In this document: positions 4,021 to 41,764 of the stretch, piece by piece
Numbering within the stretch: position 1 is the first letter of the stretch
Layout of the letters: each line of letters begins with the position of its first letter
NCBI GenBank assembly: GCA_013285735.1
Contig: JABDGZ010000013.1
Coordinates: forward strand, 136-41,899
DNA: 41,764 nt
Reading direction: 5' to 3'
From: Candidatus Omnitrophota bacterium
GTDB lineage: Bacteria; Omnitrophota; Gorgyraeia; Zapsychrales; Fredricksoniimonadaceae
Notes under the pieces: generated by a model
What the model saw: the letters and a program-made list of their open reading frames with translations, nothing else
Told to the model about the DNA's origin: nothing
The model's database searches: none
Translations under genes and position numbers: made by a program

Positions 4021-5024
4021 AAGTCTTACTTGTTGGTTATCACAATCCGCATTTTGTAAATACCATAGTCCTTCGAGAGAAGGCCGTGGGTTATTTAGGA
4101 CATGAGGCAATCTTTTTTGATGATGCCAGGTATATTATTCCTGGAAGAATAAGATCGAAGTTTCCAGTGTTGCAGCAATGGGATTTGGCACAGTTGAATC
4201 ATTCGTTAGTGAAGATGGCCCAAGAACAGAAACCAGACTGTTGCCTGGTCGTGGGCGGGCAGAACATATGGCCTCAAACAGTTTCCAACATAAAAGAGAT
4301 GGGGATACCTATTGCTTTGTGGACCACGGATGTTCCTGTTGATTTTAAGAATATCCTTGATTCAGCGAGCGTTTATGATCATTTATTTTGCGCGGGAACA
4401 GAAGCATTAGATATTTTTCAGGCACGAGGTTTTAAAAATGTATCCTGGGTCCCTTTTGGATGTGACCCTCATTTTCATCAACGTCTTTCATTGAGTGAAA
4501 GCGAAAGAAAGCAGTACTCCAAAGACATTGTTTTTGTGGGATCTTATTATCCTAACCGTGCAAGCTTGCTTGAGAGTATTGCAGATCTTGATTTGGGCGT
4601 CTGGGGACCGTATTGGCAAAAGTTAGCCGCTGATTCTCCTTTAAAGGATAAGGCGGTCAGCATTAAGATGAATTATGATCAATGGGTGCGGATTTTTAAT
4701 GGTTCTAAAATTAATATCGTCATCCATTATCAGGACGGAAAAACACCTTGTCATCAGGCCAGCCCTAAATTATTTGAGGCCATGGCTTGCGGGAGTTTTG
4801 TCTTGACCGACCGGCAAAAAGACGTACAAGCCTTGTTTAAAGATAAGGAGCATCTGGTATTTTTTGATGGCCCAGAGGATTTACGTTCCAAAATTAAATA
4901 TTATCTTGATCATGAGGATGAGCGTAAGCGTATTGCCGACGCTGGATATGCAGAAGTCAGCGCCAAACACAGGTACCAAGATCGTCTAAAGAAGATACTA
5001 GTGCATTTTCAAATTAATTCTTAA
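4017..5024 (+). CDS. CgeB-like glycosyltransferase
   Basis: MKVLLVGYHNPHF, FVGSYYPNRASLLE, SPKLFEAMACGSFVLTDRQKD typical of CgeB/Glyco_trans_1_2 proteins. Confidence 0.8.
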   Translation: MKVLLVGYHNPHFVNTIVLREKAVGYLGHEAIFFDDARYIIPGRIRSKFPVLQQWDLAQLNHSLVKMAQEQKPDCCLVVGGQNIWPQTVSNIKEMGIPIALWTTDVPVDFKNILDSASVYDHLFCAGTEALDIFQARGFKNVSWVPFGCDPHFHQRLSLSESERKQYSKDIVFVGSYYPNRASLLESIADLDLGVWGPYWQKLAADSPLKDKAVSIKMNYDQWVRIFNGSKINIVIHYQDGKTPCHQASPKLFEAMACGSFVLTDRQKDVQALFKDKEHLVFFDGPEDLRSKIKYYLDHEDERKRIADAGYAEVSAKHRYQDRLKKILVHFQINS

Positions 5025-5026
5025 TA

Positions 5027-5054
5027 CTGGATTCCCGCTTTCGCGGGAATGACA
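5027..5054. repeat. 28-bp palindromic repeat CTGGATTCCCGCTTTCGCGGGAATGACA (dRS3-like), copy 1
   Basis: identical to 28364-28391; ATTCCCGC/GCGGGAAT palindrome. Confidence 0.85.
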
Positions 5055-10138: not shown

Positions 10139-10280
10139 GGATGACACTGGTATATTGTTCTGGCTAAAATCTTTGTTCACGCTGGTAACGTTGTTTCCCA
10201 AATTTGAGGTCACGCGTTAAGTCCAGCCGAATGCAACGGTCCAGATTTTTATACGCCAGAACAACATACCAGTATCATCC
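10139..10280. repeat. long imperfect palindrome, element A1 (142 bp)
   Basis: arms GGATGACACTGGTATATTGTTCTGGC and GCCAGAACAACATACCAGTATCATCC pair with 2 mismatches; inner stem GCTGGTAACG/CGTTAagtCCAGC. Confidence 0.8.
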
Positions 10281-10314
10281 TGCGCAAGAGTTGCATTGCA
10301 TGACAAGTTTGAGA

Positions 10315-10535
10315 AGGCTGATACCGATGTATTAGTTATGGCTAAGGTTATGGTATTGTTTCCGAAACATTCAGGGATTTTTGGCCAAATGTCTGCGAGG
10401 ATTTACAACAATTTTTTTCCAAATGAAGAGAATCTTTAGAAAAAAATTGTTGTAAACCGAAGCAGACGGCCAAAATATCCCGTTTCGGAAACAATACCAT
10501 AACCTTAGCCATCTACAACATATTGGTGTCAGCCT
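10315..10535. repeat. long palindromic element, family B copy 1 (221 bp)
   Basis: 31-bp exact arms ATGGCTAAGGTTATGGTATTGTTTCCGAAAC (10338-10368) / reverse complement (10482-10512); tip CCAAATGAAGAGAATCTTTAG. Confidence 0.9.
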
Positions 10536-26463: not shown

Positions 26464-26716
26464 CATTGTAAGTGATAAGTTTGTTCTTTTTGCGACTGGG
26501 CTCCGCCGCGTTTTTTCCTGCCTGCTTCTGCAGGCAGGACGCCAAAGGTCTCATTTTTTTCGGTGGCTGAACAACTCGCCTTGAAGTTCTCTGGAACTTC
26601 AAGGCTCGAACAGTTCAGCCATCCCTCGGCCAAAAGCCTCGGGATGCCCTCAAAAAATGAGCTGCTTTGGCTAAAAACGCACAGTCGCAAAAAGAACAAA
26701 CTTATCACTTACAATG
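26464..26716. repeat. structured palindromic element, family C copy 1 (253 bp)
   Basis: termini CATTGTAAGTGATAAGTTTGTTCTTTTTGCGACTG / CAGTCGCAAAAAGAACAAACTTATCACTTACAATG; nested internal hairpins; inverted copy at 31767-31994. Confidence 0.92.
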
Positions 26717-26851
26717 ATGCATGTATATAATTGCGGCGGGTGGATCGGCGTTGATGTTAAGGGGCGGACGGTGACGGTTCTCTGGGCTAGTGAAGGGAAA
26801 CCACCGTTCTATAAGGCTGTGACGTTCGCGTTTCAATTAGGAGCACCTTAA
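26714..26851 (+). CDS. possible 45-aa small ORF
   Basis: MMHVYNCGGWIGVDVKGRTVTVLWASEGKPPFYKAVTFAFQLGAP; start overlaps the end of element C1; below the track size cutoff. Confidence 0.25.
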   Translation: MMHVYNCGGWIGVDVKGRTVTVLWASEGKPPFYKAVTFAFQLGAP

Positions 26852-26885
26852 CAGCAAGGCCGAGACAGGACCCGCAGGGAAAAGA

Positions 26886-28361
26886 ATGGAATATATGGAA
26901 TTAATTTTTGAAAAATCTATAGCAGGGCGTAAGGGGTTTGATTTTGGGGCTTCGGATGTTCCTGTCCATGTGCACATCGCTTCCAAATATGCACGCACCC
27001 AGGATGCTCCTTTACCGGAAGTGTCAGAACTTGACGTTGTCCGCCATTATACCCGTTTGTCCCAAAAAAACTTTTCCATCGATACGCATTTTTATCCCTT
27101 GGGCTCATGCACCATGAAATATAATCCCAAGTTTACCGAAGCACTTGCACGCTTGTCGGGATTCACCGACCTGCATCCTTTGTTGGCCCAGTTGTCGGGC
27201 GGCGAGCAATGGACCCAGGGGGCGTTGCAGATTTTGTATGAGTTAGAAGAGTGGATGTGTGAAATGACCGGCTTTAGTTATTTTACCATGCAGCCTCTGG
27301 CTGGCGCTCACGGAGAATTGACCGGCATCATGCTCATGGCGGCGTATCACAAGTCTAAAGGCAACAGTAAGAAAAAATATGTCATCATTCCTGACTCTGC
27401 GCACGGTACCAACCCTGCTTCTGCCGCGGTGGCTGGTTATGAAACAATTTCTATTCCGTCTAATAAAGACGGCGGGATGGATTTAGAAGCGCTTAAAGCG
27501 GCTGTTAATGATGAGACAGCCGGCTTGATGATGACCGTGCCCAGTACCTATGGTGTATTTGAACCCAATATCAGCGAGATCGCCAAGATCATTCATGCGG
27601 TCGACGGTATTATGTATTATGATGGGGCCAATTTAAACGCGGTCTTGGGGCGCTCCCGTCCGGGTGATATCGGCTTTGATGTGATGCATATCAACACGCA
27701 TAAAACCTTTACAACACCTCATGGCGGCGGCGGACCTGGTGCCGGGCCTGTGGGTGTTAATCATAAACTTTTTAAATTCTTGCCGATCTCACGGGTGGTC
27801 AAGCGCAGCGACGGCATTTATATGCTGGATTATAATTATCCTGAATCCATCGGGTATATTTCTTCATTTTATGGTAACTTTGGTCTTTTGGTACGTGCCT
27901 ATGCTTATATGTTGATGTTGGGCAAGGAAGGTTTGAGGGCCACGACCGACCATGCGGTGCTGAACGCCAACTACATCATGAAAAAATTGGAGCCCTATTA
28001 TAAAATTTGCTTTGACCGTATCTGCATGCATGAAAGTGTTTTTTCAGCCTCACGGCAGGCGGAACGCGGGGTGCATGCCATTGATATTGCCAAATTCCTG
28101 ATCGATCAGCAGATCCATCCGCCGACGGTGTATTTCCCCATCAGTGTCCCTGAGGCGATCATGATTGAACCGACTGAAACTGAGTCCAAGCAGACCATGG
28201 ATCATTTTATTGAGAAAATGATCGAGGCTGATAAACTTTCTCAAACTGACCCCGCCGCATTTAAAGAATTTCCCAAGACCATGCCGGTGGCCCGGCCGGA
28301 TGAAGTTAAAGCAGCAAGGGATGTTAAAACTAGTTTCTTTTTAACCTCTGAAAAAGAATAG
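26886..28361 (+). CDS. gcvPB: glycine dehydrogenase (decarboxylating) subunit 2
   Basis: FYPLGSCTMKYNPK, QPLAGAHGELTGIMLM, PDSAHGTNPASAAVAGY, DVMHINTHKTFTTPHGGGGPGAGPVGV. Confidence 0.97.
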   Translation: MEYMELIFEKSIAGRKGFDFGASDVPVHVHIASKYARTQDAPLPEVSELDVVRHYTRLSQKNFSIDTHFYPLGSCTMKYNPKFTEALARLSGFTDLHPLLAQLSGGEQWTQGALQILYELEEWMCEMTGFSYFTMQPLAGAHGELTGIMLMAAYHKSKGNSKKKYVIIPDSAHGTNPASAAVAGYETISIPSNKDGGMDLEALKAAVNDETAGLMMTVPSTYGVFEPNISEIAKIIHAVDGIMYYDGANLNAVLGRSRPGDIGFDVMHINTHKTFTTPHGGGGPGAGPVGVNHKLFKFLPISRVVKRSDGIYMLDYNYPESIGYISSFYGNFGLLVRAYAYMLMLGKEGLRATTDHAVLNANYIMKKLEPYYKICFDRICMHESVFSASRQAERGVHAIDIAKFLIDQQIHPPTVYFPISVPEAIMIEPTETESKQTMDHFIEKMIEADKLSQTDPAAFKEFPKTMPVARPDEVKAARDVKTSFFLTSEKE

Positions 28362-28363
28362 TT

Positions 28364-28391
28364 CTGGATTCCCGCTTTCGCGGGAATGACA
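28364..28391. repeat. 28-bp palindromic repeat (dRS3-like), copy 2
   Basis: CTGGATTCCCGCTTTCGCGGGAATGACA identical to 5027-5054. Confidence 0.85.
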
Positions 28392-31766: not shown

Positions 31767-31994
31767 CATTGTAAGTGATAAATTTGTTCTTTGCAGCGAC
31801 TGTTCGTTTTTAGCCAAAAGTTTTTGTTGTTGAGGGAAGCCTGAGCCGAAGGGCGAAGGCTGGCTGAACATGTTCGAGACTGATCTGCCAGAGGCAGAGC
31901 AGGCGAGTTGTTCAGCCACCGAAACAACAGAGAAGCTTTTGGCGTTAAAAAAACGAAGCCAGGAGCAAAAAGAATAAATTTATCACTTACAATG
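31767..31994. repeat. structured palindromic element, family C copy 2 (inverted relative to copy 1)
   Basis: CATTGTAAGTGATAAATTTGTTCTTT ... ATAAATTTATCACTTACAATG; internal GGCTGAAC..GCGAGTTGTTCAGCCACCGAAA shared with C1. Confidence 0.92.
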
Positions 31995-32002
31995 CCTCGT
32001 GC

Positions 32003-32059
32003 CTGGATTCCCGGAGCAACTGCGAATGTCCGGCATGAGGACCTTTCGCGGGAATGACA
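32003..32059. repeat. interrupted copy of the 28-bp dRS3-like repeat
   Basis: CTGGATTCCCG + 29 extra bp + CTTTCGCGGGAATGACA. Confidence 0.7.
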
Positions 32060-32083
32060 TATTTTTTTATTAAAGAAAGTGAA

Positions 32084-39552: not shown

Positions 39553-41764
39553 ATGTCTAATAAAAAAAAGCGTTTAAAAATTGATTCGAGACCTGGCCTA
39601 AGGAAGAATTTTGCCATTTTGGCATTTTTCTTGACGGGCGTCTTTGTCTCTGCGGCCTGTACTTCAGCCTATGCGCAATTTAGCGGCGGCGATGAAAGTT
39701 CTGGTGACGCCCAGTCTTCCATTGGTAGTGATATCTATGGCGGTGGTGCGCAAAATAATTCTCCTTATTCTACCTCTGGTTCCACCGGAACCTTGTCTTA
39801 TGGAACAGCAACTAAACTTGTTTTTACAGTCAGCCCTTCAGACACCAATCACTCATTTCCATTTACTCGCCAACCTGTCGTAGCCGTTGAAGATGCGTAT
39901 GGCAATGTGGTTGCCAATGATAATACGGATCAAGTGACTATTGCTATTCTTAGTAATCCTGGTAATGGTACTCTGATGGGGACAACCACTGTTACAGTTG
40001 TCAATGGTTTAGCTCAATTTACCAATTTGGCTGTTAATGCGGCCGGTCAACTATATTCTCTTCAAGCTACCTCCGGAAGCCTTACTCCTGGAACATCGGC
40101 TACTTTTAATATTAATCCTGGTACAGGTCCAGTAGCTTCAGCTGTCTGGGATGCCTCTGGCTCTACTCCTGGTTATTACATCTATATATGGTCTGCCAAT
40201 GATAATCAAAAAGAACCGTTTGATGCCTCTCTTGATTCTTGTAGTATAACGGTTTTTAATCCGGATGGGACAACCAATACGAGCGGTAGTTCCCTTTCTT
40301 TTTCAGTTGATACGACCAATAACTGGTGTAAGTCAACTACTACATGGACACCATCTAGTTTAACTCAAGGAAGTTTTACAGCTACTGTAACAATCACTGA
40401 TCCAGGCGGAGATCCTTGCGGCGGCCCAACGTCATGTAATGCTACAGTCACTCTTGGTTTAACTGGCGGAGGCACTGTCACCCAAGATTCTTTCGGAACC
40501 ACCATTAACTGGGAAGACATCGGAGTCATCAAACAAAAAACCGATACTATCAACTGGCAGGATATCGGAGTCATTAAAGCAAATACAGCAGGTGAAAATT
40601 GGCAAGATATTGGCGTTTTAAAGTCTAATGTCAGTACAATTTTAGCTTTTACGACGCAACAAAACAGCTTCGGCATCAATTGGCAGGATTTCGCCGTGGA
40701 ATCAAAAATTGGTGTTAATTGGCAAGATATTGCTTCTTTGACTACTAAGGGCATCAACTGGAATGATCTTAACGTCCTTTCGAATGTTGGTATTAACTGG
40801 AATGATTTTAGTGTTTTAACTAAGCAGGGGATCAACTGGCAAGATGTGCAAAAACTTTATAGCGCAGGTGTAAATTGGAATGATTTGGTGGTGTTGGGTC
40901 GTGCTGGTATCAACTGGGATGATTTGGCGATTTCGTCTAAAACAGGCATTAATTGGTACGATATGGCGGTTATGTCTGGTGTAGGGATCAACTGGGGTTC
41001 AGGAACTACTGGGATCAATTGGTATGATTTGGTTACCATGACCCGTGCAGGTGTTAATTGGTATAATTTAGACATTATGGCCTCTAATAATATTAACTGG
41101 TCTGATTTTCATGTTTTGAGTGATGTGGGAATTAATTGGTATGATTTTAATGTTTTAAGTAATGCTGGCATTAATTGGAGTGATTTAGGTGTTTTAGGTA
41201 AGACAGGGATTAACTGGAGCGATTTTGGGGTCTTGAGCAAAACCGGAATCAACTGGAGTGATTTGGGAGTGTTAAGCAAGACAGGCATTAATTGGAATGA
41301 CATGAATGTCTTGACCCGTACCGGAATTAACTGGAGCGATTTTGGGGTATTAAGCAAGTCTGGAATCAATTGGAGCGATTTTGGAGTATTGAGTAAGGCA
41401 GGCATTAATTGGAATGATATGGGAGTTTTAACTAAGACAGGGATTAACTGGAGTGACTTTGGAGTATTGAGTAAGACTGGAATTAATTGGAATGATCTTG
41501 GAGTTTTAACAAAAGCGGGAATCAACTGGAATGATTTGAGTGTGCTCAGCGATGCTTCGATAAATTGGAGCGGTTTAAATGTGTTAAGTGATGCGGGGAT
41601 TAATTGGAATGATTTTGGAATTTTATCGAAAGCGGGAATTAATTGGAATGATTTTACTGTACTTAGCCGTACAGGAATTAATTGGAATGATTTCAATGTC
41701 TTAAGCCGCACGGGCATTAATTGGAATGATTTTGGTGTTTTAACTAAAGCAGGAGTCAATTGGA
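39553..41764 (+). CDS. large secreted repeat protein (3' end beyond window): signal peptide, Ig-like domain(s), then [IV]NWxDhxVL tandem repeats
   Basis: uninterrupted frame from ATG 39553 to the window end (absent from the ORF track, no stop): MSNKKKRLKIDSRPGLRKNFAILAFFLTGVFVSAACTSAYAQFSGG...; Ig-like PVVAVEDAYGNVVANDNTDQVTIAILSNPGNGTLMGTTTVTVVNGLAQFTNLAVN. Confidence 0.93.
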   Translation, partial: MSNKKKRLKIDSRPGLRKNFAILAFFLTGVFVSAACTSAYAQFSGGDESSGDAQSSIGSDIYGGGAQNNSPYSTSGSTGTLSYGTATKLVFTVSPSDTNHSFPFTRQPVVAVEDAYGNVVANDNTDQVTIAILSNPGNGTLMGTTTVTVVNGLAQFTNLAVNAAGQLYSLQATSGSLTPGTSATFNINPGTGPVASAVWDASGSTPGYYIYIWSANDNQKEPFDASLDSCSITVFNPDGTTNTSGSSLSFSVDTTNNWCKSTTTWTPSSLTQGSFTATVTITDPGGDPCGGPTSCNATVTLGLTGGGTVTQDSFGTTINWEDIGVIKQKTDTINWQDIGVIKANTAGENWQDIGVLKSNVSTILAFTTQQNSFGINWQDFAVESKIGVNWQDIASLTTKGINWNDLNVLSNVGINWNDFSVLTKQGINWQDVQKLYSAGVNWNDLVVLGRAGINWDDLAISSKTGINWYDMAVMSGVGINWGSGTTGINWYDLVTMTRAGVNWYNLDIMASNNINWSDFHVLSDVGINWYDFNVLSNAGINWSDLGVLGKTGINWSDFGVLSKTGINWSDLGVLSKTGINWNDMNVLTRTGINWSDFGVLSKSGINWSDFGVLSKAGINWNDMGVLTKTGINWSDFGVLSKTGINWNDLGVLTKAGINWNDLSVLSDASINWSGLNVLSDAGINWNDFGILSKAGINWNDFTVLSRTGINWNDFNVLSRTGINWNDFGVLTKAGVNW
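40501..41764 (+). repeat. coding tandem repeat, ~32 NW-motif units, mostly 39 bp/13 aa (consensus GINWNDFGVLSKT)
   Basis: Ile/Val codon of the motif recurs every 39 bp from 41014 through 41755 and 40753-40987; one 27-bp unit at 40987-41013; first three units spaced 48 bp. Confidence 0.95.

Follow-up and report, generated by a model that had tools for sequence, protein, structure and literature searches.

We regard family C, a set of dispersed, multi-branched intergenic repeats of about 230-260 nt, as on balance a REPIN-like non-autonomous mobile element that is selected as a folded single strand. Its stems covary, one strand is distinguished from the other by its mismatches, its copies are dispersed with empty orthologous sites, and those copies that have another structured repeat as a partner stand head to head with it.

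Results

The window, that is, the whole stretch of 41,764 nucleotides analysed here, from an assembly of a Candidatus Omnitrophota bacterium, contains two copies of the family, C1 and C2 (Table 1). The initial annotation had aligned C1, reverse-complemented, with C2 and proposed a multi-branched fold, and every motif that it listed for the two is present at its place. The reverse complement of C1 and C2 share one branched shape, composed of an outer stem (35 bp in C1, 26 bp in C2), internal loops, a three-way junction, an arm P4 with tandem GA mismatches and an arm P5 that combines an internal loop with a hairpin tip, and the folding energies lie far below those of shuffled sequences (RNA minimum free energy -153.7 kcal/mol, z -16.9, for C1 and -116.1 kcal/mol, z -14.0, for C2; C1 folded as DNA, -101.7, z -16.9). 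The conserved purine loops are on the minus strand in C1 and on the plus strand in C2. In other family C copies, different hairpins occupy the internal-loop position that holds an extra hairpin in C1. Elsewhere in the window, positions 40500-41764 hold protein-coding 39-bp tandem repeats (~13 aa, consensus near GINWNDF) that continue past the window end.

Table 1. Positions of the family C elements, their parts and the neighbouring structured repeats in the window
Feature	Position	Strand	Context and basis
Element C1	26464..26716	folded strand minus	between gcvPA and gcvPB; R1 core match 146.4 bits, E 2e-37; fold
C1 outer stem P1, 3' arm of folded strand	26464..26498	-	pairs with 26682-26716; fold
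C1 outer stem P1, 5' arm of folded strand	26682..26716	-	pairs with 26464-26498; fold
C1 extra hairpin in one internal loop	26516..26539	-	absent from C2
C1 arm P5, internal loop TGTTCGAG/CGAGTT, tip loop CAGA	26565..26620	-	alignment; fold
C1 arm P4, hairpin with tandem GA mismatches	26620..26646	-	alignment; fold
Element C2	31767..31994	folded strand plus	R1 core match 128.9 bits, E 2e-32; fold
C2 arm P4 (AGCCT-GA-GCC / GGC-GA-AGGCT)	31838..31861	+	fold
C2 arm P5	31862..31917	+	alignment; fold
Element E, head-to-head partner of C1	26732..26876	+ (folded strand)	profile match 26736-26875; inverted repeat I7
Element B2, head-to-head partner of C2	31570..31752	- (folded strand)	profile match E 1e-34; inverted repeat I3
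Element H, head-to-head partner of B1	10139..10280	-	more than 10 places in this genome; inverted repeat I8
Element B1	10315..10535	+ (folded strand)	profile match 10365-10487 plus; inverted repeat I1

A DNA search found family C in all 7 genomes of the window's genus, with 1-12 copies per genome, and a covariance model, R1, built from the alignment of 21 cores from the genus gave 40 matches across the same 7 genomes. In a sample of the class, R1 matched 35 of 296 genomes and 27 of 231 genera of Omnitrophota; the spread is patchy, and outside the window's own genus a single genome of its family was matched. Candidatus Omnitrophota is named in titles of records with pattern matches, and one Elusimicrobia contig holds 2 copies. 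None of 10 pattern matches in viral contigs was upheld by the covariance model, nor were those in Gammaproteobacteria, Bauldia, Sulfuricella and Nitrospirales, while those in Saccharibacteria and Uliginosibacterium scored only ~15 bits. An Rfam search returned no family that reached its gathering threshold. The Streptococcus sRNA SSRC8_2 (RF02616) gave a weak full-length match to the folded strand of both C1 and C2 (E 0.0044 and 1.4; 18.9 bits, where the gathering score is 72), which probably reflects no more than a common long-hairpin shape, and weak matches of element B to miRNA hairpins were likewise judged to reflect long-hairpin similarity. Our literature search found no paper joining Omnitrophota with structured RNA, and the papers retrieved on Omnitrophota and transposable elements concern other subjects, as far as their titles and abstracts tell.

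The compensatory stem changes proposed from C1 and C2 extend to the wider family and exceed chance. Among the 21 genus-level cores, 94% of cells are paired and two-sided changes affect 98 pair cells; shuffles gave 26.6 +/- 4.2, and sliding the partners by 1-3 columns gave no more than 30. In 56 cores, whose alignment was fitted to the structure model and thus leans towards structure, 411 base-pair cells are altered on both sides, against 110.8 +/- 7.2 in shuffles and at most 96 with slid partners. Relatedness among the copies is disregarded by the shuffles but not by the slid control, which likewise stays below the observed values. One-sided changes amount to about 10 cells in the 56-core set, so that two-sided changes outnumber them by about 40:1, a scarcity that is unusual for an RNA evolving via wobble pairs. 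Loops and junctions are nearly fixed across copies. The covariance model built from wider copies, as the initial annotation had suggested, fits these copies, and the stems stay complementary both genus- and class-wide, so that copies with non-complementary stems, named there as a refuting outcome, did not turn up.

The mismatches tolerated in the stems distinguish the two strands. The outer stems contain 1870 Watson-Crick pairs, 72 G-U and 13 A-C (p 5e-11), with AG 51 against CT 24, counted over copies that are not phylogenetically independent and from arm alignments scored with G-T and A-C treated alike. A strand-blind process is expected to yield equal numbers of G-U and A-C, and their inequality therefore indicates polarity, with one particular strand selected to fold; together with the conserved loops, this supports the earlier suggestion of selection through a folded single strand. 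AG also prevails over CT in B elements (18:0) and E elements (28:1), in agreement with their assigned folded strands, and the folded strand of H was assigned because it gives 29 G-U and no A-C, with a G-U share of 7%, comparable to five tRNAs from these loci (7/105). The P5 tip has 733 Watson-Crick pairs, 1 G-U and no A-C, a lower G-U share than in these tRNAs (p 3e-6), and in some copies (L024, L032, L022) P4 has become a perfect hairpin, with the correction going one way or the other. We infer that template switching corrects the two arms of short hairpins against each other, and this would also account for the perfect P4 arms, whereas the long-range stems show selection on one strand.

Family C copies are intergenic, often within operons and near stop or start codons, and, with the folded strand as reference, 51 of 82 right-hand neighbours are oriented towards C, many of them with their end no more than about 30 nt away. 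Two genomes (G001 and G003) have no element at the C1 site, and gcvPA directly adjoins gcvPB there. At the C2 locus, the window's genome has B and C, G006 has an oppositely oriented C with no partner, G001 has D alone, and G002, G003 and G004 are empty; two further pairs of orthologous loci have matching flanks and an inverted element (L002/L024, L124/L142). The intergenic copies and the filled and empty orthologous sites thus support mobility of family C, in keeping with the non-autonomous mobile element that had been offered as one option. The accompanying proposal to look for target-site duplications (TSDs) and empty sites was borne out for the latter, while no TSD and no precise empty site could be resolved in the family. 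The flanks adjacent to the stem in 79 copies show a bias to A only, and no unpaired GTAG or CGTC tag stood out at one end. The terminal arms vary between copies, even within one genome, as opposed to the conserved internal loops.

Several copies are themselves nested or carry nested hairpins. Four copies in one genome (G327, loci L127-L130) lie within a MITE with TIR GGTTCATTCGT and terminal repeats of about 23 bp, flanked in at least 2 of the four by 8-bp duplications such as TAAATTAT, indicating that C has been carried by another element; the ends of this MITE resemble those of ISL3. The C-carrying MITE at these loci was also recorded with TIR GGTTCATTCGTAAATAATGTGGA and 8-bp TSDs. Several copies harbour small hairpins within P4 or within an internal loop, among them CCCTGTTGCTGAGCAAAAAACAGGG, present in C elements of two genomes (L049, L050, L052, L047). 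At L048 the flanks are palindromic but border a contig end, and they were excluded as a likely assembly artefact.

Head-to-head heterodimers of C with other structured families are new beyond what the initial annotation observed. In a profile search, 23 of 85 copies had an unrelated structured repeat (B, D or E) within 300 nt, in all 23 cases on the 5' side of C and with the folded strand opposite; the other 62 had no such partner. A family-free scan for inverted repeats beside C found 7 upstream and 0 downstream, a comparison of flanks revealed recurring non-genic repeats upstream of C, and G002 holds a C|C pair (G002:C37:60326/60531). The arrangement recurs for H, with E four times and with B once, and the six strongest long-armed inverted repeats of the window form three adjacent head-to-head pairs, H|B1, C1|E and B2|C2. 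The H (minus) and B1 (plus) pair, at 10139-10535, is separated by a 34 nt gap. At one locus (L115), an ORF of ~164 aa with no Pfam family lies between E and C, upstream of the core. C and H, otherwise unrelated, have in common an asymmetric internal-loop module, GGC-GTWA-AAAAA opposite TTTTT-A-GCC. A short REP-like hairpin, CTGGATTCCCGCTTTCGCGGGAATGACA, occurs in the window at 5022-5054, 28359-28391 and 32043-32060, and lies directly 3' of C2 and of several H copies.

A cognate TnpA_REP/Y1 enzyme, which the initial annotation had proposed to seek, did not emerge: there was no consistent nearby gene and no significant association at the genome level. Y1_Tnp, common throughout the class, occurs in 31 of the 35 genomes that carry C and in 199 of 261 genomes of the class that have no C (p 0.13), and it is missing from a few C-bearing genomes, including one that is 92% complete (G136). 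A Y1 gene adjoins a C copy in one case only (G225); a tblastn search with its protein found no other at the C loci examined, and we take this case as chance.

Discussion

Compensatory changes in hairpins have been described for REPINs (PMC3116915), and REP dimers are mostly head to head and often heterodimers (PMC3733652). REP, BIME and REPIN sequences mobilised with TnpA_REP (RAYT) resemble family C in being intergenic and non-autonomous, in acting as a folded single strand with compensatory changes and conserved stem mismatches, and in forming head-to-head dimers; REPs are, however, simple hairpins of 20-50 nt that carry a GTAG or CGTC tag, with a transposase gene near the GTAG REPs, whereas C is 5-10 times larger than REP/REPIN units and built around a three-way junction, no tag was noticed in it, and it has no consistent neighbouring transposase (PMC3116915, PMC8266576, PMC3733652). 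Family C thus agrees with REP/REPIN in its inverted dimers and departs from them in size, tag and linked transposase. The folded strand comprises a long outer stem, a three-way junction, the GA-mismatch arm and the arm whose internal loop and tip are conserved. Recognition probably relies on the loops and junctions, which would leave the stems free in sequence provided they pair. Such a unit would spread into intergenic gaps, in many cases directly downstream of a stop codon, and would often come to lie head to head with a further structured repeat (B, D, E or another C), in the manner of REP/REPIN heterodimers. It would be mobilised in trans, with a single-strand (HUH/Y1-type) enzyme as the likeliest agent, and the paired changes may be supplied by arm-to-arm copying in hairpins, since two-sided changes so greatly outnumber one-sided ones. 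Integron attC sites are likewise recognised as a folded strand, with free stem sequence and conserved extra-helical bases, features that C shares; their core site RYYYAAC/GTTRRRY was not noticed in C, where no systematic search was made for it, and C has no cassette array.

The level of G-U pairs and the GA tandems would also fit selection on RNA, and it is conceivable, if doubtful, that C is a structured non-coding RNA with its own transcript, dispersed by or hitch-hiking on mobile elements, and either functional in its own right or an RNA parasite. The RNA-like covariation with conserved non-canonical motifs, the polarity of G-U over A-C, the tRNA-like G-U share of H and the four copies carried inside a TSD-flanked MITE all agree with this. 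However, antisense orientation of the folded strand relative to neighbouring genes prevails over co-orientation (37 against 17), the near absence of G-U from the P5 tip is unlike tRNA, and a reverse transcriptase (PF00078, RVT_1) occurs in only 9 of the 35 genomes with C, compared with 49 of the 261 without it, a rarity and lack of enrichment that count against RNA-mediated spread. A cis-regulatory RNA of the neighbouring genes (an attenuator, riboswitch or mRNA stabiliser) might be imagined from the position of C between genes, often inside operons and beside stop or start codons; this is very improbable, as the neighbours are unrelated, the orientation goes either way, and orthologous sites are empty or differently filled. 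Exaptation of C at single loci is possible.

MITEs such as ERIC, RUP, NEMIS/Correia and the ISL3-type have ends conserved in sequence and make target duplications. They resemble C in size, terminal inverted repeats, intergenic dispersal and mosaic nesting, and C could be an ordinary MITE moved by a double-strand DNA transposase, its arms complementary only through template switching in hairpins. The hairpin tips nearly devoid of wobble pairs and the P4 arms made perfect in either direction are as template switching would leave them. We nonetheless consider this origin unlikely, because the terminal repeats differ among copies while the internal loops are conserved, the opposite of a DDE element, and no TSD was seen except around the outer MITE of G327; symmetric correction, moreover, cannot yield the observed excess of G-U over A-C, and neither the GA mismatches nor the internal loops, both conserved, would survive it.

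As a REPIN-like element, family C would be a mobile repeat in which selection maintains shape and not sequence across class-wide distances, with strand-specific covariation of a kind usually reserved for RNAs. With it, the head-to-head heterodimer arrangement of small REPs is extended to elements 5-10 times their size. The family also offers a concrete system in which to study the origin of paired compensatory changes, and it directs attention to a putative structure-recognising enzyme in a poorly studied phylum. More tentatively, B, C, D, E and H might be unrelated large multi-branched families using one common machinery, by which RNA-like folded modules are assembled or inserted as head-to-head heterodimers, possibly through an RNA intermediate; if so, Omnitrophota and their neighbours would harbour a novel class of mobile element that is coded in structure.
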